64,000 nt of DNA, taken from contig NC_084924.1 of NCBI RefSeq assembly GCF_958298935.1, forward strand, positions 20,123,819 to 20,187,818. The letters run 5' to 3'. Position 1 is the stretch's first letter, and each line of letters opens with the position of its first letter. Shown in pieces: positions 7,902 to 55,978 of this stretch. The notes beneath the pieces were generated by a model that did no database searches, was not told the DNA's origin, and was given only the letters and a program-made list of their open reading frames with translations. The position numbers and the translations under genes are program-made. Source of the DNA: Phragmites australis. Taxonomy: Eukaryota > Streptophyta > Magnoliopsida > Poales > Poaceae.

Positions 7902-9806
7902 GGAACAATCCCAGGATATCCAAGCCCCAGATGGAGAAAGACCAAGAAAGAGGAATTGTTGTAGAGCTTGGGCTAGTCTAGTGGTCTGCCTTCCAAAAAC
8001 TTGGCAGCTCTCGCACTTTTTGACCAGCTCAGAAGCATCCTGGAGCGTAGTCAGCCAATAGAATCCCTGGCGAAAAACTTTTCCGATCAAGGTGCGAGAA
8101 GACACTTGATTACCACACATGCCTCCATGGATATCGAGCAATATTTTGCTGCCTCTTCCTAAGTGATGCACTTCATCAAGATTCCATTACTCCCCTTTTG
8201 GTAGAGCTTGCCATTTACCAAAACATAGAGCTTAGATTTACGAGCAATTTTCTCTGCAGACGCATCATCCTCAGGGATGTCTCGAACCTCGAGATAGTCT
8301 TGGTACAGAGTCATCCAAGTTAGGTTGTGTTCAAGGAGTGCAGCATCTCTGTCTGTGGGTTCTGCCTCACTGACATGGCCAGACTACTGGTCGGGTTGGA
8401 TAGCATCCGTTTGCCGAACTATCGGGTTAGATGGTTTAAGGAGTTTCTCAACGAAGACCCCATGGGTACCGGTGCTCGATAAGAAGCGAGTCTAGCAAGT
8501 TCATCAGCATCAGAGTTATCACTCCTTCTGATTACTTCTAGCCCTTTGAACTTTTCCTTGACCTTTTGTATCTTGAGTAAGTAAGACGCCATCTTGTCAT
8601 CTGAGCACTGGTACTCCTTTTGAACTTGGTTCATGACTAGCTGTGAGTCCCCTTTCACAAGAAGTCATTTAATTCCAAGTGATGTAGCTATGCGGAGCCC
8701 ATTTACCAGTCCTTCATATTCTACAACATTATTAGAAGCTTTAAAGTATAATTGAACAACGTACCTGAGTTTGTTGCCCATTGGAGATTTGAGTATAATG
8801 CCAGCCCTCGAGCCCTGGAGCGTGAGAAATCCATCAAAGAAGAGCATCCAATGATCTTTGACCATGTTTGTTCTTGTTTCCTCAACGTTTGTCCATTCGG
8901 TGATGAAGTCTACTAACACTCCGGATTTCAGGCTGGTGCGTGGTGCGTAGCTTACATCGAACTCATTTAGCTCTACTGCCCATTACGCGATTCGTCCAGT
9001 AGCTTCCTAATTGCGTGCTACATCCTTTAGCGGGTTCATCGTCATTTCCAGGAAGGCATCAAGACTGCATATATCAGCTTCTGTACTTGCGGGTATCGTA
9101 GCTTAGCATCAAGTAGAACCTCTCTCACATAGTAAATAGGTATCTGGACCTTGGCCTTTTTCTCGGGACATTCCCGTTCGACCACCAGTACCATGCTTAC
9201 AACTTTTGGGGTAGTTGTAATATACAAAAAGAGCTCCTCTTTTTCGTTAGGTGGTGTAAGGATTAATGGAGACGATAAATACCTTTTTAAGTCCTGGAAG
9301 GCGCGCTTCGCTTCTTCTATCCACTCGAATCGGTATTGTTTCCTCAAGAGCTTAAAGAAAGGCATCCCTCGCTCGCCCATCCTAGAAATGAATCGACTAA
9401 GAGCAGCAATGCAACCTGTCAGTTTTTGAACCTCTTTCAGTATTCGAGGTGACTGCATCTGGTCGAGAGCCTCAATTTTGCGCGGGTTGGCCTCAATGCC
9501 GTGACTTAACACCAAGAAGCCGAGAAGCTTGCCCGACGGTATACCAAACATGCATTTTTCAGGGTTGAGCATCATGCGATACTTCCTGAGGTTGTCAAAT
9601 GTTTCCTTGAGATTGTCAACCAATACGATTCCGGTTTTTCATTTGACTACAACATCATCGATGTATGCTACATTGAGCCCAATTTGGGGTTGTAGATAGT
9701 TTTGAATACACCTTTGATATGTAGCACTAGCATTTTTTAAACTGAAAGGCATCTTTACATAGCAAAATACACCGAAGGGAGTAGTAAAAGCCATTTTCTG
9801 CTCATC
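7902..9806 (-). pseudogene. Tat pol: RT C-terminal half, RNase H domains, integrase zinc finger
   Basis: Read right to left. At 9639-9806 is the RT palm with AYIDDVVVK (catalytic YIDD). At 9042-9623 are RT thumb and the first RNase H (GKLLGFLVLSHGIEANP, then PPNEKEELFLYI). At 8419-8919 is the archaeal-type second RNase H, with FFDGF, NNVVEYEGL and DADELARLAS motifs. At 7902-8171 is the HHCC integrase zinc finger with IHGGMCGNQ and CESCQVFG. The dual RNase H is the main reason for the Tat assignment. Several stops break the frame. The right end adjoins the Tekay insertion and the left end the LTR insertion. Confidence 0.82.
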
Positions 9807-12800
9807 TGTCACACCAGGTTTTAAAACCAAAACCAGATGTAAACTATATGTATGCCAGGATCAGTTTATTCATACATATAGCGACTTCATTAGTGCGTAA
9901 CAGAAACAATGCTTCTTATTACAACGCTAATTATTACAAAATGACCACACACGGGTCTAAAGAAAATACACCACAGCGGAAAAGAACGGTGCAGCTGCAA
10001 GCCAACAGGCAGCCGACCGGGAGTTCCACAAGCCTAGAACTCGGCATCATCTTCAGGGAAGTCATCCTCAGGGAATTCTTCAAAAGTTTCACCTTCTGAA
10101 ACAGCAAGCGTGAGTATTTCCAATACTCAAGAAGTGGGGGAAAATTAAATTTGATATGGTGGCTTGAAACAAGGTTTCCTATTCTCTAGAGTTTCATTTG
10201 CATCAAAGCCAATTTTATTCCTGAACTATGGAAAAGCAAATTTTATTTTAAACAGGAAAAGATGTACAAAAGATTTTCCTTAACCTCTGAGAATTCAACC
10301 AATTCTCAACCAAGAAAAACAACCACCCGACTAATCATGAGAGGGTCCATGCTGCTCATAACCGTGAGCACGGCTGAATATTCAGTTTGACACTTTGCAG
10401 AGTTTGTACACTTTACCCACGAGTCGTGACCTTCTCTGTTGCCGGTACCTGTTGGTACCTTACAAACTTCCGAGGTGTGCGCCGAGAGATCACTAAGAGG
10501 CTTTTCCAAAGAGTCTCCCAGTATGCACTTGCCCATTGAGGTTTCACCACCGTACATAAGTGGAGTAACCCTCCACCCTAGAAGCACCCTCTTGTGCCGG
10601 GTAGAATCGGGAAGTAACCCTTCCTTATCTACACATCCAATCGGCTCATACAACATTGGGAGAACATCTAATTACTAGGCCAAGCCGTACCATATTGGTC
10701 TCACGGTTGTTCTGTTTGCCATGGATGGTCGCTCCACGAACCGGTCCTTAAAATGGTCTGGGCAAGACCGCCAATAACCCCATAAGGGTAGATTACCAAA
10801 CATTTCCAAACAACCAACCATGCCAGGAAAAATAGCTCTTTCTTGCCCAAAACCCTAATTATCTTTGTTGTTAACTCCCTTAACAACATCAGTTTTCATG
10901 TCATACATCCTATATCAACTTTTAGTTCATAACTCATGATTCATCACCTACATGCTACATGTTCATCTAGAAGCATGGCTAAGCATAAACATGATGTTAT
11001 TTTAAGGATAAAACATCTACAACTAACACTAGTATTTGCTATACTACCCGTTTTGTAAAACAACATACATATTGGATAAAGACTATTTTTATATAAAAAC
11101 TGGGTTTGCAACAGGGTCAAGACACTTGCCTTCATCGAAGTGATGCACAGGTCCGTCAAAATCTTCTTCCTGAAAGTTTTCGAACTCCTGGACTGAATCG
11201 TCTACACGAGCACACAATCATACATAAGAACAGTACACCAAATAGACCTAAAACTAGGGAAAAACCCTATAAATAGAATCTACACGTCTCTACGAGAATA
11301 TGAACGCAAAGATCATCTAAATCGGAGCTACGAGCAAACGTTGTGAGCGTTTGAAGTTCCAGGGGTGTTTTTGCAATTTTTCTTATTATTAGAGAAAATC
11401 CGAATTGTTTTTATACTGGAAATTTGATTTATGATGTCATAAAGCGAAACAAATTTATTTCTTAAAAGAAAAAGACATGGAAAAGGTTCACGGGGCTTGT
11501 GGACCATGGGAGAAACATCGGTCCACTGGTCCATGGTGGACCAAAGGGACAACGCATTTGGCCGGTCTAATTCGGCCGTTGGTTGGAGATCCGACGGTCA
11601 AGATTTAAAAAGGGGCGGTGCCGGTGGCTTCATCGGAGGGGTGGCAGCGAGCTCACCGGCGATGCACCAAACGGCGCATCAGGCCACAGAGCTTAATGGT
11701 GAGCGGCGGAAGAGGGAAAGGGGGGAAAGGGGAGTCTCACCACGGGCTCGACGGTGGCAGAGGAGCTTCGGAGACGGCCGGCGACGGTGAAGGAGGCCGA
11801 CGGTGCTTCGGTCTCGGCGGAAGCGGCGTCCGGTTGCGAGAGACACCCCAAAAAGTGCCGAGGGACGATGACTGAGACCCTACGACACCGTTTGAGTGAA
11901 GAACATGGTCAATTGAGGCTCGGCCATAGAGGAAATGGGCGGCGGCCGAGCTTCTTACCGTCAACAATGGCGGTCTCGGCGGAGGGCTTAAACCCAAGTG
12001 AAAATCGAGGGGAAAAAGGGTGGTTCAGGTGGGGAATGAAGAAGGATGCCGAAGGAGGGCTTAAATAGCAGAGAGGGGGAGGAAGACGGCCGGATTCGAG
12101 AAGATTGGTCGGCGGCCCCAAATTTAATCCAAGCTTCGGTTTCCATGCAAGTGAGAGGGGAATCAAGGGGGAAACAGTCGGACTGGGGTAAAAGAGAGAG
12201 GGGAACGCAGCCATGCACTTTGATTGCCGCATCAATGCGCGGGGAGGCAGTGGGGATTTGGGAACTCGGGAGTCCGGCGACGGGATTAGGTAGAAGAGGA
12301 GCCGATCAGGTGGCGGCTCAGCTCGTGGCTCGGTGGGTCCCACGCGGCAGCGAGAGCGGGGGCGACGGGCCGGCTGGAGAGGTCGGCTCAGCGGGCGCTC
12401 GGCCGGCTTGGAGCGAGAGCGGGGGCGACGGGCTGGCTGGAGAGGTCGGCTCAGCGGGCGCTCGGCCGGCTTGGGCTGGCGCTGAGAGAGAAGCTGGCCC
12501 ACACGGGAGGGGAAAGAAAGGAGGGGAGGAGGGGAAACTGGGCCGGGGAAGAGAATTCGGCCCAAGCATAATTTCTTAATTTCCAAAGCCTTTTCCATTT
12601 AAATTTTCAACATTTTTCAAAATGAGATACTAAAGCGGCGATATCTAGCGAAATTTGTAAACTTTTTCCACCCAATAAAACCTTATTGCATCTATAACGG
12701 TATGAATGCAATCAAACAATTTTTCTAGGCCAAGTTAAATTTAGAAATTAATTTCCTATTGAGCTAAGTTGCAACACCTGATTAATTTCTAGCAAAATTT

Positions 12801-12836: not shown

Positions 12837-12850
12837 AACCTACCCCCCTT
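12837..12850 (-). promoter_or_regulatory. Polypurine tract of Tekay element
   Basis: On the minus strand AAGGGGGGTAGGTT directly precedes the 3' LTR start. It is the expected primer for plus-strand DNA synthesis. The other Tekay element has nearly the same tract at 33306-33317. Confidence 0.8.
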
Positions 12851-14300
12851 AGGATGAATCTCGCCCTCGAGATTCGGGTTGATCTTCGAACGGCTGCTGG
12901 AATTCTGCCTTCAGATCATCTTCTCGCTCCCAGGTTGCTTCATCTTCTGAGTGATGACTCCATTGAACCTTGCACATTCTGATAGCCTTTCTTCTCGTCG
13001 TTCGCTCTGTAGTGTCCAGAATTCTGATAGGATATTCTGCATATGTCAGATCTTCTTTTGGGTCCACTTCTTCCAGGTACAACTGTTCCTCTGGCATTCT
13101 TAAATATTTCTTTAATTGAGATACATGAAATACGTCATGCACATCAGCCAGTGCAGATGGTAGTTCCAGCTGATATGCTACCTCTCCACGTCTAGCGACT
13201 ATCTTGAATGGTCCAATATACCTGGGTGCCAATTTCCCTTTAACCTTAAACCTGCGGAGACCTCTGATAGGTGAGACTTTCAAATACACCATATCTTCCA
13301 CTTCAAAAGTCAATTCTCTCCCTCGATTATCTTCATAACTCTTTTGTCAGGACTGTGCAGTCCTCAAGTTTTCCCGTATGGCCTGAACCTGCTCTTCTGC
13401 TCTTCTAAGAACTTCTAGCCCAAACACTTGGCTTTCTCCAGTTTCGTTCCAATACAGCGGAGTTCTGCACTTTCTACCATACAAAGCTTCAAATGGAGAT
13501 ATTTTGAGGCTGACTTGGTAGCTGTTATTGTAAGAAAACTCTGCATATGGTAAGCTCCTATCCCAACTCTGCTTGTACTTCAAGGTGCAGGCTCTTAACA
13601 TGTCTTCCAACACTTGGTTGGTCCTCTCTGTCTGTCCATTGGTTTGGGGGTGATATGCGGAACTTTAGTTCAGTTTCGTATCCAAGGATTCATGCAGCTT
13701 CTGCCAGAAGCGAGAGGTAAATTGGGTACCTCTCTCTGACATGATCTTTTTGGGTACCCCATGTAGACACACAATCCTTGACATATACAACTCGGCAAGC
13801 TTCACACTTGAATATGTTGTCTTGACTGGGATAAAATGCGCAACTTTCGTTAAGCGGTCCACCACTACCCTGATATAATCGTAGCCTGCTTGAGTACGGG
13901 GTAACCCAACGATGAAATCTATACCAATTTCTTCCCACTTCCACTCTGGAACTTTCAAGGGTTGCAATAATCCTGCTGGCCTTTGATGTTCTGCCTTTAC
14001 TCTCTGACAGGTATCACACAAAGCTACATATTCTGCGACATCTCTCTTCATACCATACCACCAATAATACTCTTTCAGATCCTGATACATCTTGGTGCTT
14101 CCGGGGTGAATGGAATATGCAGAATCATGTGCTTCTCGTAAAATCAAATCCTTCAAATTTTCTGGTTGGGCACACAAATTCTTTTCCCAAACCACACTGT
14201 TCCTTGATTATCTTCTGAGAATCCCGGTGCTTTATTTGTTTTTATGAGTTCTTTGATCTCCTTTATTTTCTCATCTTCCCATTGTCCTTTTCGGATGTCT
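12849..14300 (-). pseudogene. Tekay integrase with C-terminal chromodomain
   Basis: Minus strand, N to C: HHCC zinc finger (14050-14170, ALCDTCQRVK), catalytic core (GIDFIVGLP for the first aspartate; SERGTQFTS where the second is expected; PYAEFSYNN with the glutamate), GPY/F-type region (GPFKIVARRGEVAYQLELP) and a chromodomain at the C terminus (YPIRILD, then KVQWSHHSEDEATWERE). The chromodomain of this clade is thought to steer integration by reading modified histone H3 or chromatin partners. The second catalytic Asp is replaced by Glu, and stops occur at about 13664 and 13346, so this copy is inactive. It ends just before the polypurine tract. Confidence 0.88.
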
Positions 14301-14305: not shown

Positions 14306-16078
14306 CTATTGTGACTTCATTTCTATTACTGTTGCATCCATGTCAGCAACACAACCTAAATTTAACCTCTCAAACTCCTTGCATAATTTTGGCTGACTTC
14401 CTTGCAACATAGTCATATTGCAATAACCCTTCCTACTCAGGGCATCTGCCACAACATTTGCTTTCCCAGGATGGTAATGTATTCCCACATCATAATCTTT
14501 GATTAGTTCCAACCATCTACGTTGCCGCAGATTAAGATCCGGTTGGGTAAAAATATATTTTAGGCTTTTATGATCCGTATGTATTTCACATCAGTTGCCA
14601 ATGAGGTAGCGCCTCCAAATCTTTAGGGCATGAATCACTGCAGCTAACTCCAAATCATGGGTCGGATAATTTTCCTCATGTTTCCTCAACTGTCTGGATG
14701 CATATGATACCACATGACCTTCTTGCATAAGTACACATCCCAACCCTTGTCGAGACGCATCACAATACACAGAGAACGGCTTCTGGGTATCTGGCATAAT
14801 AAGAACTGGCGCGGTGGTCAACTTTTCCTTCAACTCATTGAAACTGGCTTCTCGAGTGGTTGTCCATTTGAATTATGCTCCTTTTTCTAGTAGTTCTGTC
14901 ATTGGTTTCACTATCTTGGAAAAACCTTCTATAAATCGGCGGTAATACCCTGCGAAACCCAAGAAACTGCGGGTCTCCGAAATGTTCTGCGGGGTTTTCT
15001 AGTTTATAACATCCCTTACTTTGGATGGATCTACGGACACACCTCCTGATGAAATAATATGACCAAGGAAGGGTACTTCTGTCAACCAGAACTCACACTT
15101 ACTCAATTTGGCATAGAGCTGGTTCTCTCTGAGTTTCTGTAATACCATCCTTAAGTGTTCCTCGTGTTCTTCCTCGTCCTTGGAGAAGACCAGGATATCA
15201 TCAATAAACATCATGAAAAACTTGCCCAGAAACTCCATGAAGACCTTATTCATTAGGTACATGAAGTATGTGTGTGCATTTGTCAAGCCAAAAGACATCA
15301 CCGTGAACTTATAAAGGCCATATCAGGTAACGAACGCGGTCTTTGGAATATCCGAAGCGCGAATCTTTAACTGGTCGTATTCGGACCGAAGATCAATCTT
15401 GGAAAAAATACACGCTCCTTTCAACTAATCAAACAGACCATCAATGTGAGGCAGTGGGTATTTGTTCTTGATAGTTACTTCATTGAGAGCCAGATAGTCT
15501 ATGCACAACCTTTGCGTTCCATCTTTCTTTGGTACAAAGATGACTGGAGCTCCCTAGGGCGAAGAACTAGGGCAGATAAACCCTTTGTCTAACAGCTCTT
15601 GGATTTGCTCCTTGAGCTCTGCCAGCTGATTGGCATCCATTCTATAAGATATCTTATATATAGGTGCAGTTCCTGGCACTAACTCAATCACAAATTCTAT
15701 TTCACGATCTGGCGGCATACCTGGAAGATCATCGGGAAAAACGTCCGGGAACTCGTTCACCACATTGATCTCTTCTACAGGAATACCCTTCATTTGATTT
15801 AGTGAGCATTCTTCTGCCGAGGGTATAGTTGCAACAAACTTGACCTGCGTGCCTTCTCTGTTAGTCAGTTGAAATGCTCTTCTGGCGCAGTCTGTGATTC
15901 CCTTATATTTCGCCAGCCAGTCCATACCCAAAATAACATCAATTCCACTGGATTCCAGAACTACAAGGTTGGCTAAGAAGTCTACCCCCTTATATAAAAG
16001 GCTTAGCTTTGAGAATATATACGTTGCCCTCATTTCTCCTCCAGGGGAGCTAATAATCATTTGCTGCTTCATATGCAC
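14306..16078 (-). pseudogene. Tekay protease C-terminal part, reverse transcriptase and RNase H
   Basis: Minus strand. At 15554-16078 are the end of the protease fold (GIDVILGMDWLAKYKG) and the RT N terminus (DVFPDDLPGMPPDREIEF). At 14999-15301 is the RT palm with [10 protein letters not shown] and [11 protein letters not shown] (catalytic FIDD). At 14591-14833 is RNase H, with [17 protein letters not shown] and the later [13 protein letters not shown]. At 14306-14512 is its end, with [16 protein letters not shown]. Stops and frameshifts lie between the blocks, for example at 15303-15553 and near 14880. It is immobile unless helped by another copy. Confidence 0.87.
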
Positions 16079-17392
16079 AATTGGCAGATTATACTTTGCA
16101 ACATATCTGTAGTGATGAATGAATGCGATGCTCTTGAATCAAATAAAACTGATGCTGGGTTTGAGTTGACAAGGAACATACCAAGCACCACATCTTGCGC
16201 TTCTTGGACTTCTTCAGTAGTGACATGGTTGACTCGCCCACGTGCGTAGTTCTGTTGAGCCCGGTTGGTTGGAGCTGGTGCCTGGTTCCCATTGCGACCT
16301 GGAGCTTGATGCTGTCCTTGATTTGGAGCATTTCCATTGCCATACTGCATGGGAGGGTTGTTGGGTTTCTTCCTCGGGCATTTATTGGCATAATGCCCTA
16401 CTTCACCACAGATGAAACATGCCTTTCTGGTGGAAGGTGCCTGATCGCCAAACTTCTGTTGAGGCCCCGGGGGTTGGGTCTGACAAGGGGCTTGGAAGTT
16501 TGAGCGCTGAGCTTGCATCTGTAGCTTGTTCTGGTTCTGATGCTGGTTCTGATTTTGATGCTGGTTCTGTTGGCAGAACATGGGTCCTTGTTGAGGTGGG
16601 TTATAGCGGGGTCGAGAGTGACTGCTTGAGCCTTGGCCTTGAGAAGACATTTTCCTCTTATGATCCATCTGGCGGCGTTTGTGTTCAACCACCAGGGCTT
16701 TATTCACCTTAGGCTGGAAGCTTGCAAAGTCTTGGGGAAGCAATGCATATTGGATACCATCATTCAGGCCCTCTAGGAAATTTTCCTGCTTTTTCTCATC
16801 CGTATCGACATCCTCGGGGGCATACCTTGATAGTTGTGTGAACTTTGCCACATATTCACTCACAGACATAGCTCCTTGTTTAAGCTCATGAAATTCCTTA
16901 TTTTTGAGTTTCATTGCCCCAGCTAGTATATGGTGAATGCGAAAGTTGGTCCGAAACTCCGCCCATGTAATGGCTTGTGCATCTTCATGGGCATTGACAT
17001 ATGCGTCCCACCAATCTGCCGCTGGTCCGGAAAGTTGATGTGAAGCAAACAAGACCTTTTCCCTGTCGTTGCACTGAGCTATCCGGAGTTTCTTCTCCGT
17101 GGCTTTCAACCAGTCGTCAGCATCCATTGGTTTCCACGACCTATGAGAACACTGGGGGTTTGGTTCTCATAAACTCTCCCAACCTATTCTGTGGTGGGGG
17201 AGGAGGAGCTTGCATGTGCACGGGGGCCTGCTGCATATTTTCCATAGTCTAAGCTAGTCCCTGAAGAATTTGCGTTTGCATGGCCATCATTTGCTCCATG
17301 TTGAACTGAGGTGGTGGAGGAGGATGCGGCAGTTGCTGGTTGTTGTTGACATTGTTGTTGTCGGCACGGGGGTTTCTCCTGGTGTTCACTAT
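16069..17392 (-). pseudogene. Tekay gag and protease N terminus
   Basis: Gag starts at 17392-17390, where the expected ATG reads ATA before GTGAACACCAGGAG. The protein continues with an MEQMMAMQTQILQGL motif, a stop near 17249, a one-base frameshift near 17145, then MDADDWLKATEKKL and a retrotransposon-gag domain (residues WWDAYVNAHE, FLEGLNDGIQYALL). A CCHC zinc knuckle, CFICGEVGHYANKC, lies near 16395-16440. The protease active site near 16130 reads FDSRASHSF where FDSGAS is expected. The bases just before the start codon end in CAACCAG, a splice-acceptor-like context. A second Tekay element shows the same arrangement at 55060. Confidence 0.87.
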
Positions 17393-17668: not shown

Positions 17669-18466
17669 CTAAGCTTGCGAACCGATGGATGGTTTAGCAG
17701 TTGACTGGTCGTCGTCCTCCGAAGACTCCTCGCTAGAAGGAACACTGCGGCGCAGCCTCTTGGGAGAGGGCGAGTGGACGAACTGGTCCTCTGAGTCAGA
17801 AGAGCTAGACATCCCATTGAGGCTATTTTGCGGCTCTCTGATCTGTGCTTCAGCATCTCGAAGGTGCTTGCGGGTGTCCTGAAGCTCATCCAAAGCTTCA
17901 TCTAGGTCCTCATGCAGTGTCGTAGCCAACAGCACCTGCTCTTGAGCCACACCGCTATGCTTGTGGGTTGTTCCCTTCACCTTGATATCCCAGCTTCCAC
18001 GCTCCCGATGAGGGAAGTAGTCGTAGGAAGTCCCCCTCAGAGTGCTCCTATGGTGCTCACAGACACGAGCCAGTGCCTGCCTTGCTACGTCTCTGATCCC
18101 TGCTTCGAAGCTTTCATGGACGGCCATTGGTTTGTGGATGCCCACGATCTCATAGTTGTTGTCGCCTTATGGAGAACCATTGATGCACACCTCCACCAAC
18201 CACTCCTCACATCCTGGACGAGTCTAACGAAGACCGTGGTAGACAGTTGCCTTGGTGTACCCCAGACGCTGCAGCTTTTCCACCCGTATCATTGGTGCCT
18301 TCCCTGCTTCGAATCCCTTGGAATGATACAGCTTCTTGCTTCCATTCTTAGGAATAGTGACTCCACGGCTGGGTCTAGCAGAGGCGTTGGGTGCAAAGGT
18401 GACCGGGGCACGGGGAGGAACATAGCCGCCGGTGGTCTTGCGGGCAGTCTTCTTGATGCGGGCCAT
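17669..18466 (-). pseudogene. Extra ORF upstream of gag with histone H3-like N-terminal tail
   Basis: One minus-strand frame of 265 codons, broken by TAG at codon 81 and TAA at codon 100, both one base change from CAG/CAA. Residues 1-14 read MARIKKTARKTTGG; histone H3 begins MARTKQTARKSTGG. Identity is 11 of 14 and keeps R2, K4, R8, K9 and the GG turn. Similarity to H3 stops there. About residues 70-165 form a domain with CEEWLVEV, FEAGIRDVARQA and YDYFPHRERG. Residues 175-212 look like a coiled coil. SPSPKRLRRS (232-241) resembles a nuclear localisation signal, and SSEESSEDDD follows. The ATG (18466) directly follows TTTCCAAACTGTAG, a good 3' splice acceptor. The rest of the protein resembles extra ORFs of other grass Tekay-type elements, including 54246-54788 here. 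A nuclear, chromatin-directed role is inferred. Confidence 0.8.
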
Positions 18467-18490
18467 CTACAGTTTGGAAACAAGAGAGTA
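18467..18490 (-). promoter_or_regulatory. Predicted 3' splice acceptor at the H3-like ORF start
   Basis: On the minus strand a pyrimidine-rich stretch ends CTGTAG immediately before the ATG, with a branch-point-like ACTGATA about 30 bases upstream. The matching donor candidate is GACG/GTAAGA in the 5' LTR at 28510. With the CRM insertion removed the intron would be about 2.3 kb and would take out the primer-binding site. Confidence 0.5.
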
Positions 18491-18622
18491 TCAGTAAAAC
18501 ATTTTCAATAAAGCAATAAAATGAAGCTCAAGGGTAAACAAAGATTATGCAAATATAGTTTTTCTAAATTAATCCTTAATACGCGACCATTTCTAGCTAG
18601 GCTTGCGACCTACAGTCAACAC

Positions 18623-18635
18623 GGCTATGATACCA
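18623..18635 (-). promoter_or_regulatory. Primer-binding site of Tekay element
   Basis: On the minus strand TGGTATCATAGCC lies four bases inside the 5' LTR end. It resembles the complement of the initiator methionine tRNA 3' end, the usual minus-strand primer in these elements. Confidence 0.75.
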
Positions 18636-18639
18636 CTTC

Positions 18640-19728
18640 TGTCACACCCGGTTTTAAGACCAAAACCAGATGTAAACTATATGTATACCAGGATCAGTTT
18701 ATTCATACATATAGTGACTTCATTAGTGCATAACAGACACAGTGCTTCTTATTACAACACTAATTATTACAAAATGACCACACACGGGTCTAAAGAAAAT
18801 ACACCACAGCGGAAAAGAACGGCGCAGCTCCAAGCCAACAGGCAGCTGACCGGGAGTTCCATAAACGTAGAACTCGACATCATCTTCAGGGAAGTCATCC
18901 TCAGGGAATTCTTCAAAAGTTTCACCTTCTGACACATCAAGCGTGAGTATTTCCAATACTCAAGAAGTGGGGGAAAATTAAATTTGATATTGTGGATTGA
19001 AACAAGGTTTCCTATTCTCTAGGGTTTTATTTGCATAAAAGCCGATTTTATCCCTGAACTATGGAAAAGCAAATTTTATTTTAAACAGGAAAAGATGTAC
19101 AAAAGATTATCTTTAACCTTCGAGAATTCAACCAATTCTCAACCAAGAAAAACAACCACCCAACTAATCATGAGAGGGTCTATGCTGCTCATAACTGTGA
19201 GCACGGCTGAATATTCAGTTTGACACTCTGCAGAGTTTATACACTTTACCCACGAGTTGTGTTCTTCTCTGTTGCCGGTACCTGCTGGTACCTTACACAC
19301 TTCCGGGGTGTGCGCCAAGAGATCACTACGAGGCTTTTCCAAAGAGTCTCCCAGTATGCACTTGCCCACTGAGGTTTTACCGCCGTACATAAGTGGAGTA
19401 ACCCTCCACCCCAGAAGCCCCCTCTTGTGCCGGGTAGAATCGGGAAGTAACCCTTCCTTATCTACACATCCAATCGGCTCATACAACACTGGGAGAACAT
19501 CTAATTACTAGGCCAAGCCGTACCATATTGGTCTCACGGTTGTTCTGTTTGTCATGGATGGTTGCTCCACGAACCGGTCCTTAAAATGGTCTGGGCAAGA
19601 CCGCCAATAACCCCATAAGGGTAGATTACCAAACATTTCCAAACAACCAACCATGCCAGGAAAAATAGCCCTTTCTTGCCCAAAACCCCAATTATCTTTG
19701 TTGTTAACTCCCTTAACAACATCAGTTT
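18640..19728 (-). repeat. 5' LTR of Tekay element, part next to the internal region
   Basis: This piece is collinear with 9807-10889 of the 3' LTR. It ends at the CRM insertion, which is flanked by AGTTT, and the LTR continues at 27451. Confidence 0.85.
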
Positions 19729-20637
19729 TGATGAGGACATCACTCTTTCGGATACACACACACCGAATATTCCTCCAACACTATGTCCATTGACACGAGC
19801 TCATACACGTCAACTAAATCATGAGGTGAGCTCGTTCCTTAGTGTTCCTTTATACTTTGATGAGGATGGGATGCTACTGAATAATTGTGATGTATTGCTA
19901 CTTAGGAACACGGGAGAAGAACAGCATGGGCGCCCAAGCCAAGGTGGAGGCCCAATCCAGTTCGAGTCCGTTTCGGAGTCCAGGACCAGTCCGCACTAAA
20001 ATCGTCGCCCAGGACGCATACAGACTTCGTTTTTTACGTTCTACACATGGTTGGAAAGCTAAGGAGATAAGCTTTCCAACGGTACTAGTACCATGTCCAA
20101 ATTCTTTCTGAGTCAACGGGAATCGTTGAAACAAGTGGACGTCCAGAATCTGTCAGGGTGCTGCGCCACCATCTTTTGGGCCGTTGGGCTGTGTAACGTG
20201 TTGGAGTCCATTAGGGACGCGTCCAGGGGTCTTTGGCCGACCCTAGTCTTTTATATATAGTAGCCGTCACCGTAATTAGGGTTGGGTTTTGCTTAGATAT
20301 TGATCTACACACAGTTGTGAGATTTTCGCTCTTGTTCCGGACCGACTAGGCCGCCGCAAGTGTTTGTGGAACCCCGACTTCGAGTGCTTGAATTCTATTC
20401 GCAATATTTCATATTGCATCTTCTACGTTCTTGCTTGTGTTCTCGGTACGCTTGTAGGGATTGAGCCTTCTTGGCGAGGTCAACCGCGCGACATGGTTGA
20501 TAACCATCGGAGCTGTGGTGTAGTGATTGCAAGGGAGACGATCTGTTCGGGTCGAAGCCTTTGGATCATCAACGTCGAGTTCTCCACCCACCGACTTATC
20601 ACTACCTATCGGAAAATCAGGCCAACATTACTCATCA
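19729..20637 (+). repeat. 5' LTR of CRM element
   Basis: It is 909 bases. A TATA box, TATATATA, lies at 20252-20259. The start of the LTR is also coding: in this copy the frame continues [18 protein letters not shown] and HEVSSFLSVPLYFDED, the tail of the polyprotein, because (AC)5 keeps phase. Confidence 0.9.
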
Positions 20638-21880
20638 ACTGGTATCAGATTTTCAGGTTGCCGTTAGGTAATTTCGTTTTCCCTTTAGATTAGTCTGTTT
20701 TTCATTACCTAGAGTCCAGAAAAAGCCAAAAAAAATTCCGTCAATTTCCGCTGCCCTAGAACCCTTTGTGCCTTTGCAATTTTTGTTTTCAGTTGCGCGT
20801 TGTTGAGTTTGTATCCGTGGTCAAGTCTTGTTGCTAGTTTTAGAGTCGTGTTCTTGGTTTTTAGTCAATGCTCCGTGCTATTTTGATCACGCCGCTATCC
20901 CATCGCCACCATCCCCACCAACAAGTCGAGCCACCACATTACTCGATTTGCCACCGCGAGCTGCCTTGTGTTACTTTCTGCCACGCCAACCCTAGATAGG
21001 TCGCAAGCCGCCTTGTATCAATTGCCTTGCCACCGCTGCCATCCTTGTTCATCTCGCGATCCTATTGCTGGCAATACCTTAAAGATGTCAATTTCTGCAA
21101 GAGTTGCTTGAAAAAAAAACCCTAACTCGACAGGGGTTCAGTAAAACAGCCATAACTTTCTCATACGGACTCGGAATTAGGCAAAAAAAAATTTCACGGA
21201 CATCTACAGAAAAAGTTACATCCGTTGCTCCCCCGCTTCGCCAAGTTCCACCAAAATTTTTTTCCCAAATTCGGCTCGGAAGATTGAGTATTCAAGCCGT
21301 GAAGTTTCCGCACGCTTTTCAGAGAACGTGCTTGATTTTCTGTAGGCCACATCTTGCATCCGTTTGAGCTGAAAATTTCTGTGGTTGTTGCTTGTGTGCT
21401 CCTAGTTCAGAAAAAAATATCAGAAAAATACAAAAAAAAATTCGTGATTCCTACTAGTGCTAAAAGACAAAAAAGAGGAGCACATAGAGAACACCCAGAT
21501 AATTGTGCTGTTTGCTGTGTTTTTTTCTGATCATCCTTTTTAGCTTTGTTTCAGCTTTTGTGCTAGGACTAGGGACACGTGATAGACCAGCAACTGTGAT
21601 TCATACTTTGGACACTTATTTAGCTTTGCTCTTCTGATTACAATTATTGCTAATCCTTGCTACCATATTGTGCCTTCCAAACTCCACCTCCTTTGATCCG
21701 AACAGGTTCACTCTTGCAATCATCCCACGCTTCCAGACTCGTCACCGGTTGTTCCTCCTTGCTGCGTTGGTAAGAACATTTGTAAGAGCGTGGTAAGACG
21801 CTTGAGTGTGTGTGATTCCACCTTCCACAACCTAGTAGTTGATAGGGATAATATTTGTTGTCCTTTGTTTTCTACTAACC
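20638..21880 (+). promoter_or_regulatory. Primer-binding site and leader of CRM element
   Basis: TGGTATCAGA at 20640-20649 fits the initiator-tRNA-type primer-binding site. The remaining 1.2 kb up to the gag ATG shows no coding domain and is read as the untranslated leader. Confidence 0.65.
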
Positions 21881-23030
21881 ATGTCAGGTGATGGCTCTCC
21901 GTCGGATTTTAAGGATCGTGTGTCCAAGGAAGAACTCAACAAAGCCTTGCAGGATCATACTAGGCTATTGACAGACATTAGAACAAGCATTGCTAACCTC
22001 GTCACGCGAGTCAACGACCTTGAGTTGCGACAGCCACCACAGGATGATGACCATTCACATGATGATGATGATGATACTAATGATGGTGACCAAGAAGATG
22101 GTGAGGTTTTTGTTGGGCAAGATGCGCGTGCGAAGCAACGTCCTCATGCTGAACAATTACGTCGTGGCCAACAACAACGTCGTCAAGGTAATGGAGGTAA
22201 TAATGTTAATCGCAACGGTCGCGATGATCCTTATTCTAAGATTAAGTTTTCAATGCCTCCTTTTGATGGTGCATATGATGCTGATGCTTATTTGAATTGG
22301 GAAATGACGGTTGATCAAAAGTATAGTTCTCATATGGTTCCTGAAATACATAGAGTTAGACTAGCCACTTGTGAGTTCACGAATTATGCTATTATTTGGT
22401 GGAATGGTCTAGTTTCTAGTGGCTTAGAACCTGAATCATGGCCTAGACTAAAGCGTGCCATGCGCAATAGATTTATTCCTCCTGATTATACATGTGAATT
22501 GAAAAAGAAATTGCAGCACTTAAATCAAGGTCCTAAATCTGTCCATGATTACTATCAAGAGCTTCAAATTGCTATGCTTCGTTGTAGTATACAAGAGGAT
22601 GATGAGGATACCATGATTCGTTTTTACTCCGGGTTGAGACATGAAATTCAGGACCTTGTTGATTATAAAGATTACAATACTACCAATAGGTTGTTCCATT
22701 TTGCTATCTTGGCAGAAAAAGAACTGCAGGGTCGACAACAGGTGCAGAAATTGCGGAACAATTTTGGGAGTACATCTACTTCACGAGTACCATCGGGACA
22801 AGCAACAACATTCCCTTCTACATCTACACGATCTGCTGCCCCCTCCTCCAACACTCGGGCGCGTTCAGCAGGAGCACCACAACCATCACGTGAGGTGAGT
22901 AAATCTACTGTTTCGTAGGATCCGATGTCACGCTCTTCTTCAGGTGCAGCTACCACGGGTCGTACAACGGGCATTGTGTGCCGTCGCTGCCAAGGTATTG
23001 GCCACGTCATGAAGGATTGCCCAAGCCAGC
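21881..23030 (+). pseudogene. CRM gag with zinc knuckle
   Basis: The start MSGDGSPSDF at 21881 is preferred over an upstream in-frame non-ATG extension. An acidic run (HDDDDDTNDGDQEDGE) is followed by the retrotransposon-gag fold (FSMPPFDGAYDADAYLNWE, then WPRLKRAMRNRFIPPDY and VHDYYQELQIAMLRC). A TAG stop at 22916-22918 is in frame, and the same frame continues to the CCHC zinc knuckle CRRCQGIGHVMKDC at 22979-23020. Gag forms the cytoplasmic particle that packages element RNA. Confidence 0.9.
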
Positions 23031-25420
23031 GAGCATACTCCGTAACAGCAGATGGTGGATATGTTAGTCATAGTGATGTCGAGGAAGAATATGCATTTGA
23101 AGCTAATCTTGCAGCCGATCATGACATGGATAGTGAGGGGGAGGAGATTAGTGGTACCGCTGCCACGGAGAGTTATGCAGCATGCACCTTCATTATGAAG
23201 CGAGTTTTGAGTTCTCAAATGGGGCAAGCGGAGCAGCTACAACACCATAATCTATTCCAGACATTCCTCATTGTCAAAGATGCACGTGTTCGTACCATAA
23301 TTGATGGCGGGAGTTGCAACAACCTCTTGAGCTCTGATCTTGTGAAGAATCTTTCCTTGCCAACACGTGCACATCCTCATCCATACTACATTCAGTGGTT
23401 CAATAACAGCGGTAAGGTTAAGGTAACACAATCTGCGAGAGTACATTTTTCTATTGGTTCCTACCATGATTATGCTGATTTTGATGTAGTGCCTATGCAA
23501 GCATGTTCACTTTTGTTAGGCCGTCCTTGGGAATTTGATACCGATGCTACACACCATGGTAGAAGTAATAAATACTCTCTCATGCACAAGGGAAAGAAAA
23601 TCTCTTTGCTTCCTTTGACACCTGCTGAAATTGTGCAATGTGATAAAGCTTTAGCTGAAAAAGAAAAGAAAGAACGTGTTTTGGAATCTGAAAATCAGCA
23701 AGTAGCTCAATCTGTTTTTCCACCTAAGAAAGAGAAGAACACACCTAGGTCCGAAGGCATTAAGTTAAAGGGTGGTGTTATGCTTGCTACTAAATCTGAC
23801 CTTACTGAAATTCAAGATAATGATACTTTGTGCTATGCTTTCGTATGCAAAGAGGTTTTATTTTCAATTGATGATATACCTAGCTCTTTGCTTGCTGCTG
23901 TCACTAACCTTTTGCAGGAGTATAAGGATGTCTTTCCAGCTGAGATACCCCCGGGGCTACCACCATTGAGAGGGATAGAGCACCAAATAGATTTGATCCC
24001 AGGAGCGACTTTGCCAAACCGCGCTGCATATAGGACCAATCCGGAGGAGACTAAGGAAATTCAGTGACAAATCCAAGACCTTTTGGACCGTGGGTACGTA
24101 CGAGAGAGCCTTAGTCCTTGTGCTGTTCTTGTTCTTTTGGTTCCTAAGAAAGATTGTACATGGCGCATGTGTGTTGATTGTAGAGCCATTAATAATATCA
24201 CAATAAGGTATCGTCACCCTATTCCTAGGCTAGACGACATGCTTGATGAGTTGAGTGGTTCTATTATTTTCACGAAAATTGACTTGCGTAGTGGTTACCA
24301 CCAAATAAGAATGAAATTGGGAGATGAATGGAAAACTGCTTTCAAAACTAAGTTCGGTCTATATGAGTGGTTAGTGATGCCTTTTGGTTTAACTAATGCA
24401 CCTAGCACTTTCATGAGATTGATGAATGAGGTTTTACGTGCTTTCATATGAAGATTTGTGGTGGTGTACTTTGATGATATTTTGATCTATAGCAAGTCAT
24501 ATGAAGAACACATTGATCATCTACGTGCTGTTTTTACTGGTTTGAGAGAGGCACGTTTGTTTGCTAACCTTGACAAGTGCACCTTTTGCACGAATAGAGT
24601 TGCTTTTCTTGGCTATGTTGTTACTCCACAGGGAATTGAAGTGGATGAAGCTAAAATTGAAGCCATCAAGAGCTGGCCGACCCCTGGGACTATCACACAG
24701 GTGAGAAGCTTTCATGGCCTTGCAGGGTTCTATCGGCGTTTTGTGAGAAATTTCAGCACCATTGCTGCCCCACTCAATGAGTTGACAAAGAAGGGCGTTC
24801 CGTTCCAATGGGGGCCAGCACAAGAACAAGCTTTTAATACGCTGAAAGATAAGCTTACGCATGCACCTCTACTCCAACTTCCGGACTTTGGTAAGACTTT
24901 TGAGTTAGAATGTGATGCTAGCGGCATTGGAATTGGAGGAGTGCTACTACAAGGAGGTAAACCTGTTGCTTATTTTAGTGAGAAATTGAATGGGCCATCT
25001 CTTAATTATTCGACTTATGATAAGGAGTTGTATGCTTTAGTGCGAGTTTTAGAAACATGGCAACATTATCTTTGGCCCAAGGAGTTTATTATTCATTCTG
25101 ATCATGAAGCTTTGAAACATATTAGAAGCCAAGCCAAACTGAACAAACGTCATGCTAAATGGGTTGAATTTATAGAGTCTTTTCCTTATATCATTAAACA
25201 TAAGAAAGGTAAAGACAATGTCATTACAGATGCGTTATCTAGACGTTATACCATGTTGTCCCAACTCGATCATAAGATTTTTGGTTTAGAAACAATTAAA
25301 GGATTATATGCTACTGATTTGGACTTTAAAGATGCTTTTGAACATTGTAACGAAGGAAGAACTTGGAATAAATATGTGTTGAATGATGGATTACTATACC
25401 GTGCTAACAGGCTATGCATC
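23031..25420 (+). pseudogene. CRM protease, reverse transcriptase and RNase H
   Basis: Same frame as gag. The protease has IIDGGSCNNL near 23297. The RT begins near 24000, with [33 protein letters not shown] and [12 protein letters not shown] (catalytic YFDD near 24467). RNase H is at 24895-25240, with [24 protein letters not shown] and [13 protein letters not shown]. In-frame TGA codons at 24065-24067 and 24449-24451 break it, and both could be single-base changes. Otherwise the active-site residues look intact. Confidence 0.9.
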
Positions 25421-26591
25421 CCAGCTAGCTCTATTCGCCTATTGTTCTTGCAGGAAGCGCATGGAGGTGGTTTGATGGGACATTTTGGAGTGAAGAAGAC
25501 CGAGGATGTACTGGCTACTCACTTCTTTTGGCCTAAGATGAGGCGCGACGTCGAGCGCTACGTGGCACACTGCACTACTTGCAATAAAGCTAAGTCTCGC
25601 TTGAACCCACATGGATTTTATATGCCTCTTCCTGTTCCTAGTGTGCCTTGGGAGGATATTTCTATGGATTTTGTTTTAGGATTGCCTAGGACCAAGAGGG
25701 GGAGGAATAGTATATTTGTCGTTGTGGATCGTTTTTCAAAATGGCACATTTTATACCTTGTCACAAGAGCGATGATGCTACATAGCTGATTTGTTTTTCA
25801 GGGAAATCATTCGCTTGCATGGAGTGCCTAACACCATTGTTTCGGATCGTGATGCAAAATTTTTGAGCCACTTTTGGAGGACACTTTGGAATAAACTTGG
25901 GACAAAGCTGCTGTTTTCGACGATATGTCACCCTCAAACCGAAAGACAAACGGAGGTTGTGAACCGCACATTATCCACCATGTTGCGGGCTGTTTTGAAG
26001 AAAAATTTGAGGATGTGGGAAGAGTGTCTACCCCATATTGAGTTCGCTTACAACAAATCAGTTCACTCCACCACCAAGGTAAGTCCGTTTCAGGTAGTGT
26101 ATGGTTTTAACCCCCGTGCCCCTATTGATTTACTTCCTTTACCAACATCCGAGAAATTGAATTTTGATGCTAAGACACGTGCTGATTTGATTCTGAAAAT
26201 GCATGAGTTGACTAAGGAAAAAATTGAAAAGATGAATGAGAAGTATAGAACTTATGGTAGCCGAGGTCGGAAACATATTACTTTTGAAATTCGTGATCTT
26301 GTGTGGTTACATTTGCGCAAAGATAGGTTTCTTGATTTGAGAAAGTCTAAATTGCTGCCTCGAGCTGATGGTCCTTTTACAATTGTGGAAAAGATCAATG
26401 ATAATGCATATAAGCTTGAGTTGCCTGCAGATTATGGGGTTAGTCCCACATTTAACATTTCAGATTTAAAACCTTACTTGGGAGAAGAAGATGACATTGC
26501 GTCAAGGATGACTCCAATTCAAGAGGAGGAGGATGATGAGGACATCACTCTTTCGGATACACACACACACCGAATATTCCTCCAACACTAG
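25421..26591 (+). pseudogene. CRM integrase; C terminus runs into the 3' LTR
   Basis: The HHCC finger ([19 protein letters not shown]), the three catalytic acidic residues ([30 protein letters not shown]) and the GPF-type segment ([19 protein letters not shown]) are present. Small indels near 25738 and 25779 shift the frame between the first and second catalytic residues. The C terminus ([26 protein letters not shown]) crosses the LTR start at 26534, as in CRM elements whose tail is thought to guide centromeric insertion. Here (AC)6 instead of (AC)5 throws the tail out of frame. Confidence 0.88.
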
Positions 26592-27445
26592 GTCCAATGA
26601 CACGAGCTCATGCACGTCAACTAAATCATGAGGTGAGCTCGTTCCTTAGTGTTCCTTTATACTTTGATGAGGATGGGATGCTACTGAATAATTATGATAT
26701 ATTGCTACTTAGGAACACGGGAGAAGAACAGCATGGGCGCCCAAGCCAAGGTGGAGGCCCAATCCAGTTCGAGTCCATTTCGGAGTCCAGGACCAGTCCT
26801 CACTAAAATTGTCGCCCAGGACGCATACAGACTTCGTTTTTGACGTTCTACACATAGTTGGAAAGCTAAGGAGATAAGCTTTCCAACGGTACTGGTCCCA
26901 TGTCCAAATTCTTTCTGAGTCAACGGGAATGGTCGAAACAAGTAGACATCCAGAATCTGTCAGGGTGCTGTGCCACCATCTTTTGGGCCGTTGGGCCGTG
27001 TAACTTGTTGGAGTCCATTAGGGACACGTCCAGGGGTCCTTGGCCGACCCTAGTCTTTTATATACAGTAGCCGCCGCCCTAATTAAGGGTTGAGTTTTAC
27101 TTAGATATTAATCTACACACAGTTGTGAGATTTTCGCTCTTGTTCCGGACCGACTAGGCCGCCGCAAGTGTTTGTGGAACCCCGACTTCGAGTGCTTGAA
27201 TTCTATTCGTAATATTTCAGATTGCATCTTCTACGTTCTTGCTTGTGTTCTCGGTACGCTTGCAGGGATTCAGCCTTCTTGGTGAGGTCAACCGCGCGAC
27301 ACGGTTGATAACCATCGGAGCTGTGGTGTAGTGATTGCAAGGGAGACGATCTGTTCGGGTCGAAGCCTTTGGATCATCAACGTCGAGTTCTCCACCCACT
27401 GACTTATCACTACCTATCGGAAGATCAGGCCAACATTACTCATCA
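26534..27445 (+). repeat. 3' LTR of CRM element
   Basis: It is 912 bases, preceded by a purine-rich AAGAGGAGGAGGATGA tract. It has one more AC unit near 26557 than the 5' LTR. The LTR-encoded tail resumes in a different frame as MTRAHARQLNHEVSSFL from 26597. Confidence 0.9.
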
Positions 27446-29342
27446 AGTTTTCATGTCATACTTCCTATATCAACTTTTAGTTCATAACTCATGATTCATC
27501 ACCTACACGCTACATGTTCATCTAGAAGAATGGCTAAGCATAAACATGATGTTATTTTAAGGATAAAAAATCTACAACTAACACTAGTATTTGCTATACT
27601 ACCCATTTTGTAAAACAGCATGCATATTGGATAAAGACTATTTTTATATAAAAATTGGGTTTGCAACAGGGTCAAGACACTTGCCTTCGTCGAAGTGATG
27701 CACAAGTCCTTCAAAATCTTCTTCTTGAAAGTTTCCGAAGTCCTGGACTGAATCGTCTACATGAGCACACAATCATACATAAGAACAGTACACCAAACAG
27801 ACCTAAAACTAGGGAAAAACCCTATAAACAGAATCTACATGTCGCTACGAGAATATGAGCGCAAAGATCATCTAAATTGGAGCTACGAGCAAAAAGTTGT
27901 GAGCGTTTGAGTTCCAGGGATGTTTCTACAATTTTTCTTATTATCAGAGAAAATCCGAATTGTTTTTATACTGAAAATTGGATTTATGATGTCATAAAGT
28001 GAACAGATTTATTTCTTAAAATAAAAAGACATGGAAAAGGTTCACGGGGATTGTGGACCATGGAAGAAACATCGGTCCATCGGTCCATGGTGGACCGAAG
28101 GGACAATGCATTCGGCTGGTCTAATCCGGCCGTTGGCTGGAGATCCGACGGTCGAGATTTAAAAAGGGGCGGTGCCGGTGGCTTCAACGAAGGTGCAGCG
28201 GCGAGTTCACCGGCGATGCGCCAAACGGCGCATCAGGCCACAAAGCTCAACGGTGAGCGGCAGAAGAGAGAAAGGGGGAAAAGGGGAGTCTCACCACAGG
28301 CTCGACAGCGGCAGAGGAGCTCTGGAGACGGCTGGGGACGGTGAAGGAGGCCGGCGGTGCTTTGGTCTCGGTGGAAGTGGTGTCCGGTTCGAGAGACACC
28401 CCAAAAGCACCGAGGGACGATGACCGAGACCCTACGACACCGTTTGAGCGAAGAACATGGTCAATTGAGGCTCGGCCATAGAGGAAATGGGCGGCAGTCG
28501 AGCTTCTTACCGTCAACAATGACGGTCTCGGCAGAGGGCTCAAACCCGAGTGCAAATCGAGGGAAAAAAGGGTGGTTCGGGTGGGGAATGAAGCAAGGAT
28601 GCCGAAGGAGGGCTTAAATAGCCAAAAGGGGGAGGAAGACAGCCGGATTCGAGAAGATTGGCCGACGGCCCCAAATTTAATCCAAGCTTCAGTTTCCATG
28701 CAAGTGAGACGGGAATCAAGGGGGAAACAGTCGGACTGAGGGTAAAAGAGAGAGGGGAACGCAGCCATGTATTTTGATTGCCGCATCAATGCGCGGGGAG
28801 GCGGTGATTTGAAGCGGCGGCGGGATTTGGGAGCTCGGGAGTCCGGTGGCTGGAGGAGGGAGAAGAGGAGCTGATCAGGCGGCGGCTCGTCTCGTGGCTC
28901 GGTGGGTCCCACGCGGCAGTGAGAGCGGGGGCAACGGGCCGGCTGGAGAGGTCAGCTCAGCGGGCGCTCGGCCGGCTTGGGCTGGCGCTGAGAGAGAAGC
29001 CGGCCCACGCGGGAGGGAAAAGAAAGGAGGGGAGGAAGGGAAACTGGGCCGGGGAAGAGAATTAGGCCCAAGCACAATTTCTTAATTTCCAAAGCCTTTT
29101 CCATTTGAATTTTCAACATTTTTCAAAATGAGGTACTAAAGCGGCGATATCTTGCGAAATTTGCAAACTTTTTCCACCCAATAAAATCTTATTGCATCTA
29201 TAGCGGCATGAATGCAATCAAACAATTTTTCTAGGCCAAGTTAAATTTAGAAATTAATTTCCTATTGAGCTAAGTTGCAACACCTGATTAATTTCTAGCA
29301 AAATTTTAAATTATTACAAATATTGAATTTTTGGGTGTTACA
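27446..29342 (-). repeat. 5' LTR of Tekay element, outer part
   Basis: It is collinear with 10889-12836. The TATA-like CTATTTAAG is at 28613-28621 and the splice donor GACG/GTAAGA is at 28510, both the same as in the 3' LTR. It ends TGTTACA at 29342, beside the Tat RT. Confidence 0.85.
28505..28516 (-). promoter_or_regulatory. Predicted splice donor in Tekay 5' LTR
   Basis: On the minus strand TTGACG/GTAAGAAG is a near-consensus plant 5' splice site about 105 bases downstream of the TATA-like box. It is identical in the 3' LTR (11953-11964). It is the best candidate donor for transcripts joined to the H3-like ORF or to gag. Confidence 0.5.
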
Positions 29343-33316: not shown

Positions 33317-33317
33317 G
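33306..33317 (+). promoter_or_regulatory. Polypurine tract
   Basis: AAGGGGGGTAGG lies two bases before the 3' LTR start at 33320 and just after the pol stop. Confidence 0.8.
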
Positions 33318-33319
33318 TT

Positions 33320-53676: not shown

Positions 53677-54245
53677 CAAACTACAACTGTCTATACTAAT
53701 AGTGCATACGGTTCTAGTTTAGAACCGTCTGTATTATTCCTTTTGTATAGACGGTTCCAAATTAGAACCGTCTGTACAAAAAAGAATAGTATAGACGGTT
53801 CTAAACGTACTAATAGTGTCCCACTCATTTTGAGCATATATCTTATATAGATTATTTTCATACAATGGTTAGCAAAGAATGACAGGTGAGATGGTAAGGA
53901 AGGTTCGCGCGAGGTTAGAGGTTGCGGGTTCGACTCCTAGAAACACACTCGTGGTATTTCGTGTGAAAAATCATGTGACTTGCGACCGCACCTACATAAT
54001 AATATAGGGAGCTGGTGTGGGTAGGATAATATTTTTTCTAGATTGTTTAGCTCCAGAAAACTTAGTACATACGGTTCCAATAACGAGCCATCTGTACAAA
54101 TCATTTGTATAGATTTTTTTTGACAGAAAGTTCAAAAAAGTGTCTCGCACGGGGTTTCTGAACCGTCTATACAAATCATTTTTGTACTAGTGAATGGATT
54201 ACACCAAGGCATCTTACCAAGGATGCTTTGATCCATGCTCACTGA

Positions 54246-54788
54246 CATAGGCAACAAAAGAAGGCGATGTATGAGGGATCAAGGCAAGCCAATGGTACGG
54301 AGTGGACTGTCACTGTCTTCATCTATGGACGCCGTTCACACAAGGGAGAAGTTAGAGTTGCATGTACATACTCCTTGGAGACAAGGAGGTCCAATTTTGA
54401 AGAAGACATACAAAACGCTGCACGCCAAGCTCCCTACCATGAGTACCGCTACATCAATGTCTAAAGTGACACCAACCCAAATACTAGAGTTCGATGCTAC
54501 TGCAATGAAGAAAGCACTATGCTCCAAATACAAGTTCAATTCACCATCACCCTAGATCGACAATATGACAGTACTATGCAAGAACTGAAGGCCACATACC
54601 ATCACTTGGAAGATGACGAAGAAGAGAATATGATACTTCATCATCGCCTATGTGATGGTACACCTACACCATCCTCGCCTCCAAGCAAGAGATCTCACTT
54701 CGAGCCTCTCACAAGTTCAGGATCAGAATATCCAGACATTGATTTAGATGGAGAACCTGCAACCCCACCATGTGTACCAGATAGGTAA
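54246..54788 (+). pseudogene. Extra ORF upstream of gag, second copy, lacking the H3-like end
   Basis: One frame with a single internal TAA at 54462-54464. EWTVTVFIYGRRSHKGEVRV and NFEEDIQNAARQA align with CEEWLVEVCINGS and FEAGIRDVARQA of the ORF at 17669-18466. A coiled-coil-like part (LDRQYDSTMQELKATYHHLE), SPPSKRS and an acidic DIDLDGE tail follow in the same order. Upstream, after the CACTA joint, YTKASYQ matches YTKATVY of the other copy. No MAR-KTARK-like start is found between the PBS and here. It is a member of the same family with its N terminus lost or strongly changed. Confidence 0.7.
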
Positions 54789-55748: not shown

Positions 55749-55978
55749 TGAAGGTTTATCTAGCTCCTAATTATGGTTTTGGTAATTAATGATAATACCT
55801 ATTGACTAACAATTGTGTTGAAAATTGTTAGTAGGTTGAGTCATTTTTTATGGCCATTCTTTTTCTCCTCGCAAACCAATACCCTTATTAGGAAAGAGGA
55901 AAATCATGAGATCAAAGAAATGCATCGATGCCATTGAGCTCTGGGTGATGCTCATGAGATGAAAGAGAAGCTCAAGAA

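Follow-up and report, generated by a model that had tools for sequence, protein, structure and literature searches.

A 64,000-nucleotide stretch of the Phragmites australis genome (contig NC_084924.1, forward-strand positions 20,123,819 to 20,187,818; hereafter, the window) carries a Tekay-type long terminal repeat (LTR) retrotransposon with an additional open reading frame (ORF) upstream of gag, and the protein encoded by this ORF begins with a segment that resembles the N-terminal tail of histone H3. The tail precedes a body with a predicted double-stranded RNA (dsRNA)-binding domain (dsRBD) fold. The likeness to H3 is very probably real and not a product of chance. Based on the sequence comparisons and structural models, we tentatively propose, with a probability of about 0.4, that the protein is an H3-tail decoy or adaptor that joins host H3 readers and writers with small-RNA proteins and thus weakens the silencing of the element.

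With the initial methionine counted, the N terminus MARIKKTARKTTGG is identical to H3 in 11 of 14 positions, which reproduces the count given in the original prediction made from this DNA. A chance match was ruled out by the runner-up, as the best other 14-mer among the 65,842 open 14-mers in six frames of the window has only 6 matches; the best internal 14-mer of the related proteins has 5 (n=24,676). Within the window's lineage, 11 to 13 of the 14 residues of the H3 tail ARTKQTARKSTGG are present. Among individual relatives, the number of matches out of 14 is 13 in P0002, 12 in P0001, P0005, and P0006, 9 in P0007 and P0008, 8 in P0004, and 7 each in P0009, P0010, and P0011. In the model of P0002, residues 1-3 and 7-39 have a predicted local distance difference test (pLDDT) score below 50, as expected for an exposed, disordered terminus.

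Two other identities of this N terminus were considered and rejected. A genuine histone is ruled out by the lack of any histone match in five relatives at E-values up to 10, together with the dsRBD-like model. The protein had been described as not a histone past residue 14, and this is true for the fold; the similarity, however, extends further than that, since P16 is in the H3 register in five of six lineage representatives and L20 is also in register in L031 and L036, which belong to a further family of the same genome. The representatives (P0002, L012, L029, L031, P0005, and P0006) were picked by hand; L029 and L012 are sister groups, and L029 is ~51% identical to P0004 by BLAST. A plain gag N terminus is ruled out by a separate gag downstream, both in the window and in 31 of 52 tail-bearing loci, 17 of the other 21 being short fetches. 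These 52 loci, which represent 49 distinct places with three fetched twice, were chosen by a loose tail pattern, and therefore tallies of tail residues on them were set aside.

The ORF occupies 265 codons plus a stop at the coordinates first proposed, on the minus strand. The window copy is broken by two in-frame stops, and its longest possible product has 80 residues. The following features of the element were identified:
17669..18466, minus strand: 5' additional ORF (aORF) upstream of gag, with two in-frame stops
18425..18466, minus strand: H3-like N-terminal tail, codons 1-14, MARIKKTARKTTGG
18224..18226, minus strand: in-frame stop, codon 81
18170..18172, minus strand: in-frame stop, codon 99
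18053..18310, minus strand: predicted dsRBD-fold domain, mapped from P0002 residues 50-135
17810..17953, minus strand: long predicted helix (coiled coil), mapped from P0002 residues 169-216
17672..17773, minus strand: SP-KRLRR basic motif, then acidic serine tail
18467..18516, minus strand: splice-acceptor-like stretch with CTGAT (branch-point-like), a pyrimidine-rich tract, and TAG abutting the ATG
18623..18635, minus strand: primer-binding site (PBS)-like sequence TGGTATCATAGCC, which we take to be of the initiator-Met-tRNA type
18638..19733, minus strand: 5' LTR, with the outer end split by another element inserted at ~19728
9805..10900, minus strand: 3' LTR
16069..17127, minus strand: gag (Retrotrans_gag, zinc knuckle) and start of protease
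15554..16078, minus strand: protease region (RVP_2)
14999..15322, minus strand: reverse transcriptase (RT) fragment
14306..14872, minus strand: RNase H region
13347..14195, minus strand: integrase; Pfam matches cover 13665-14195, and 13347-13664 is contiguous without a match of its own
12849..13346, minus strand: integrase C-terminal region with an SH3-like domain and a partial chromodomain

The ORF lies between the PBS-like site, ~156 bases away, and gag, in agreement with the predicted location, and is followed on the same strand by gag, protease, RT, RNase H, integrase, and the partial chromodomain. This position on the coding strand is that of a Tekay-type 5' aORF, and the integrase with a chromodomain, although partial and below the Pfam cut-off (Chromo, 21.8 bits versus 25.1), is that of a chromovirus. 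The name Tekay is the label of the original prediction; the placement here rests on the position of the ORF and the chromodomain. The two LTRs are 95.3% identical, a value that we did not convert into an insertion age, as the 5' LTR is apparently shared with a neighbouring copy. All further parts of the protein described earlier were recovered, namely the conserved domain, the coiled coil (as a long helix predicted on P0002), the basic motif, and the acidic serine tail.

The tail is probably translated from the predicted start, since the acceptor-like TAG stands directly at the ATG. TAG abuts the ATG in 52 of 52 tail-bearing loci, and the feared case of translation that normally starts downstream was not seen, the ATG appearing to be used. 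The PBS-to-ATG leader is conserved across divergent families (L007, L012, L029, L031, L036, and others) and ends in the acceptor-like TAG. Of 13 leaders that were aligned, 10 show a CTRA-type branch motif by eye and 3 show TTGA, together with a pyrimidine-rich tract. The conserved leader points to a candidate intron in the leader of these elements; the TAG can also be read as an upstream stop codon. In the window copy, the leader has two ATGs, which encode peptides of 4 and 3 residues and would be spliced out if the TAG is an acceptor. Methionine before alanine is trimmed by methionine aminopeptidase, and such removal of the initiator would expose Ala1, as in H3.

The possibility that intact relatives show no conservation of the first 14 residues was also not borne out, as the tail is present in many copies and in several lineages. 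For the first 80 residues, 449 candidates were obtained in the 848-Mb host genome and 150 matches among them were scored; of those listed, many sit in frames open for 265 codons. A PBS-like site is found upstream in 42 of the 52 tail-bearing loci. No relatives were confirmed by tblastn in IMG/VR and prokaryote genomes. P0003 was excluded from the counts, since only its second half matches and its precomputed Pfam family PF00521 is foreign to this family.

Comparison of the six representatives revealed A1, R2, T3, T6, R8, and K9 as invariant, that is, 6 of 9 tail columns versus 15 of 189 elsewhere (p=4.8e-5); in an earlier set of four representatives, 7 of 9 tail columns and 17 of 191 others were invariant. 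The constrained core of the tail is A1-R2-T3-x-x-T6-[A/P]-R8-K9. Among 36 hand-picked rows (27 of 60 fetched loci and 9 proteins), R8 is arginine in 30 and K9 is lysine in 30. Fifteen of 21 pairs of lysine-bearing proteins have domains that are 22-30% identical and share 6-9 of the nine tail residues 2-10; two other pairs have 44-47% domain identity with 6 and 7 tail residues in common, and the remaining four are within a lineage. Positions 3, 4, 5, 10, and 12 change fast in the window's own lineage, much of which has V or I in place of T3.

The body of the protein, as modelled on P0002, has a predicted alpha-beta-beta-beta-alpha fold of the dsRBD type, with plant DRB7.2, DRB4, and HYL1 as the nearest predicted folds. 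This fold was missed in the original prediction, and it points to small-RNA silencing. A separate SP-K/R basic motif is found near the C terminus in most rows inspected.

In the proposed decoy or adaptor role, the protein would enter the nucleus via the SP-K/R motif and dimerise through the helix. Its tail, A1-R2...T6-A7-R8-K9, would then be offered to H3K9 writers or to readers accepting an unmethylated position 4, and the TARK core may be methylated at K9 or bound by a reader. The dsRBD fold may serve for dimerisation or for contact with DRB or Dicer-like (DCL) proteins, and the expected outcome would be lowered methylation of the element. As Q5, S10, and K4/R4 are the positions freest to vary, the pattern suggests that the target recognises A1-R2 and R8-K9 and is independent of K4 methylation. 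Judged from reader structures, the freedom at Q5 and the K/R exchange at position 4 would suit readers with a requirement for A1-R2 and R8-K9.

A number of results, on the body as well as on the tail, weigh against this role. The phmmer matches to H3 are weak (E 0.006 for the first 80 residues and E 0.039 for P0002), because the tail is short. In the Foldseek search against PDB, no match reaches E 0.001, and the KKxAK lysines at the start of helix 2 are missing: among 120 cells (40 rows, few gaps) there are one K, at the second lysine position, and three R, at the first. The same absence tells against another possible function, direct binding of dsRNA by a silencing suppressor that the H3 tail merely positions on chromatin producing small interfering RNA (siRNA) precursors, since the lysine positions hold K in 1 of 40 rows and R in 3. 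The Pfam domain dsrm likewise found no match in five relatives at E-values up to 10, nor does it appear in the 25 families displayed, out of 30, for 24 members. Such a suppressor would agree with the predicted dsRBD fold, with the good scores of viral models (a giant-virus RNase III at rank 2 and a DRBM protein at rank 4; a poxvirus PKR inhibitor scores weakly, at rank 31 with E 0.12), and with a like proposal made for grass Tekay aORFs (PMC11728184), yet we consider it very unlikely.

In the tail, K9 belongs to the invariant core, but K4 is not retained as lysine: of the 36 rows, 18 have K there, 11 have R, and 7 have another residue. Some rows have R, Q, T, A, H, or V instead of S10, and the variation at these two positions may impair how some H3K9 enzymes recognise the tail. 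Two of the six representatives have P in place of A7. The 52 tail-bearing loci are related copies and not independent events. A comparison of purifying selection on codons 1-14 with that on the rest had been suggested, and stronger selection on the tail was not found: the ratio of nonsynonymous to synonymous changes (pN/pS), summed over 12 pairs that were picked by hand, partly overlap, and are near synonymous saturation in the deeper cases, is 0.44 for tail codons 2-13, 0.41 for the dsRBD, 0.58 for the linker, and 0.43 for the helix. The tail is thus constrained, but no more than the rest (tail versus dsRBD, Fisher p=0.46). The purity of lysine and arginine in the tail is also a weak argument, because 7 of the 12 other mostly basic columns are purely K or R as well and only 5 are mixed (7 related rows).

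These last results are what would be expected if the tail were a basic localisation or nucleic-acid-binding segment with a functionally meaningless likeness to H3: K4 swaps with R between lineages, R2, K/R4, R8, and K9 keep their positive charge, the pN/pS of the whole tail is ordinary, and K/R purity is not specific to it. Such a segment, however, does not account for the uncharged A1, T3, and T6, which are as invariant as the basic residues in the six representatives, or for G13, P16, and, in one family, L20, which also match H3; furthermore, most inspected rows already have the SP-K/R motif. We regard this explanation as doubtful. Still less can be said for a functionless relic of a captured H3 5' end, a highly improbable origin of the present-day tail. 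The fading of H3 similarity past residues 14-20 and the clade without both lysines (see below) would suit a relic, but the tail pN/pS of 0.44 is well below 1, and the tail persists across lineages with domains that are 22-30% identical. A precedent for capture exists in six fungal genomes, where a Dothideomycete hAT DNA transposon took up whole H3 genes and is likewise present in hundreds of copies (PMC6710886). What those copies contain is the coding sequence of H3, for the most part truncated and inactivated through repeat-induced point mutation (RIP), whereas the present LTR element, many frames of which are open, has only the tail, joined to an unrelated domain with a predicted dsRBD fold.

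A further departure from H3, which also counts against the decoy or adaptor role, is a clade of 31 rows with no lysine at position 4 or 9 (support 100/99 in a tree of 40 rows built without the tail columns). The clade, which includes P0010, carries V1, with L or I replacing K4 and I or V replacing K9, and its tails mostly follow the pattern MVRT[L/I]QTTR[I/V]NT; T3, Q5, T6, and T11 are kept in 31 of 31 rows, R8 in 29, and R2 in 22. P0009 similarly lacks both lysines. From the tree, 72 of 111 proteins were excluded because their start is not M[AV][RHLC][TV]; 70 of them begin at least 15 residues inside the protein, and the other two are P0003 and P0040. As the rows were picked by their N terminus, tallies over them do not show conservation by themselves. 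Lysine-bearing rows stand on several sides of the clade, so that loss of the lysines is the simpler reading; the deep branching order is unsure because of long branches.

All 31 rows of the clade have a hydrophobic residue at the target-lysine positions in an H3-like context, as in a pseudo-substrate. Some lineages may thus offer a methylatable K9 decoy, and the clade an oncohistone-like dead-end substrate by which H3K9 (and H3K4) methyltransferases are caught on the siRNA-producing transcripts of the element; we consider this division of roles unlikely. In known cases, M or I at the site of the target lysine allows an H3-like peptide to block a SET-domain enzyme; in EZHIP and in H3 itself, such a residue reduces H3K27 methylation, and G9a is bound tightly by H3K9M or norleucine (PMC6513997, PMC5030085). 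The clade has I/V at K9 and L/I at K4; EZHIP targets PRC2, and the available excerpts on H3K9 cover M and norleucine, with nothing found there on I or V at K9 (PMC6513997, PMC5030085).

The lysine-less clade would also lose the tether assumed by a further explanation, in which chromodomains of the host or the element bind the K9-methylated tail and the tail thereby guides the integration complex towards heterochromatin or keeps it away. The element's own integrase has a chromodomain (partial by Pfam), type II chromodomains of plant chromoviruses have no aromatic cage and no known partner (PMC6317226), and insertion patterns differ between sunflower Tekay groups that have a 5' aORF and those that lack it (PMC11728184). 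A chromodomain without a cage, however, is not expected to read K9 methylation, and we hold the tether to be distinctly unlikely.

The genomes of plants contain abundant Tekay-type chromoviruses, and no function has been established for the extra ORFs at their 5' side. The ORFs as such are known: 500 of 523 sunflower group-2-like elements carry one (PMC11728184), and extra ORFs of plant retroelements are treated in PMC6317226 and PMC7264820. The statement of the original prediction that no function has been described holds in the sense that none is established, but modulation of RNA silencing has been suggested for the maize and sorghum aORFs from a weak structural match to DRBM (TM 0.35-0.37) in a 2024 paper (PMC11728184). 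Compared by description only, the grass aORFs (maize Tekay, sorghum Sb7, and rice Retrosat-2) share with the present protein the pre-gag position, the long C-terminal helix, disordered parts, a predicted nuclear location, and the weak DRBM similarity; an H3-like N terminus is not described in the available excerpts, and the word "histone" has no occurrence in the main text (PMC11728184).

The dsRBDs of plant DRB proteins (DRB7.2, DRB4, HYL1/DRB1, and DRB3) are only 15-20% identical to the retrotransposon body, which differs from them in having a single dsRBD, no KKxAK lysines, an extra helix, and the H3-like tail. A viral parallel is influenza NS1, a protein that binds dsRNA. The ARSK mimic of influenza A H3N2 NS1 is likewise a short H3-tail motif at a protein end, but it is C-terminal, viral, and four residues long, in contrast to the 9-14 residues in H3 register at the N terminus of the protein of an LTR retrotransposon (PMC10208167). 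An H3-tail mimic in a plant transposable element was not found among the literature matches listed, which did not cover subscription papers. VANC of the Arabidopsis VANDAL transposons is sequence-specific and binds a DNA motif, and to our knowledge it has no H3-like tail. Similarly to the role proposed here, it is encoded by a transposable element and counteracts epigenetic silencing (PMC10398659). If the decoy or adaptor role is true, the retrotransposon would meet both arms of plant transposon silencing, H3K9 methylation and small RNAs, and histone mimicry would be extended from viruses to LTR retrotransposons.

Several other features were observed in and around the element. Its 3' non-coding region contains a 63-base tandem duplication (12349-12474, 98.4%). 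The element nested in the outer end of the 5' LTR (19729-27446) is another Ty3-type element, with LTRs 95.7% identical, and is flanked on both sides by AGTTT, a 5-base target duplication as judged by eye. Beyond it, at 27441-29342, the split LTR runs on into the 3' non-coding region of a further family member that has the same orientation; the pieces are 91.6 and 95.8% identical, which suggests a tandem pair of elements with one common LTR. A related chromovirus in the opposite orientation (30872-33329, plus strand) spans RT to chromodomain with 72.6% identity at the DNA level, and neither gag of the described element nor relatives of its 5' ORF matched there by tblastn. Finally, a degraded and divergent dsRBD-like relative, 27-29% identical to P0001/P0002 by tblastn, is located at 54216-54785 on the plus strand; an H3-like N terminus was not seen in the upstream stretch inspected, and RT remains lie nearby at 55474-55752 on the minus strand.
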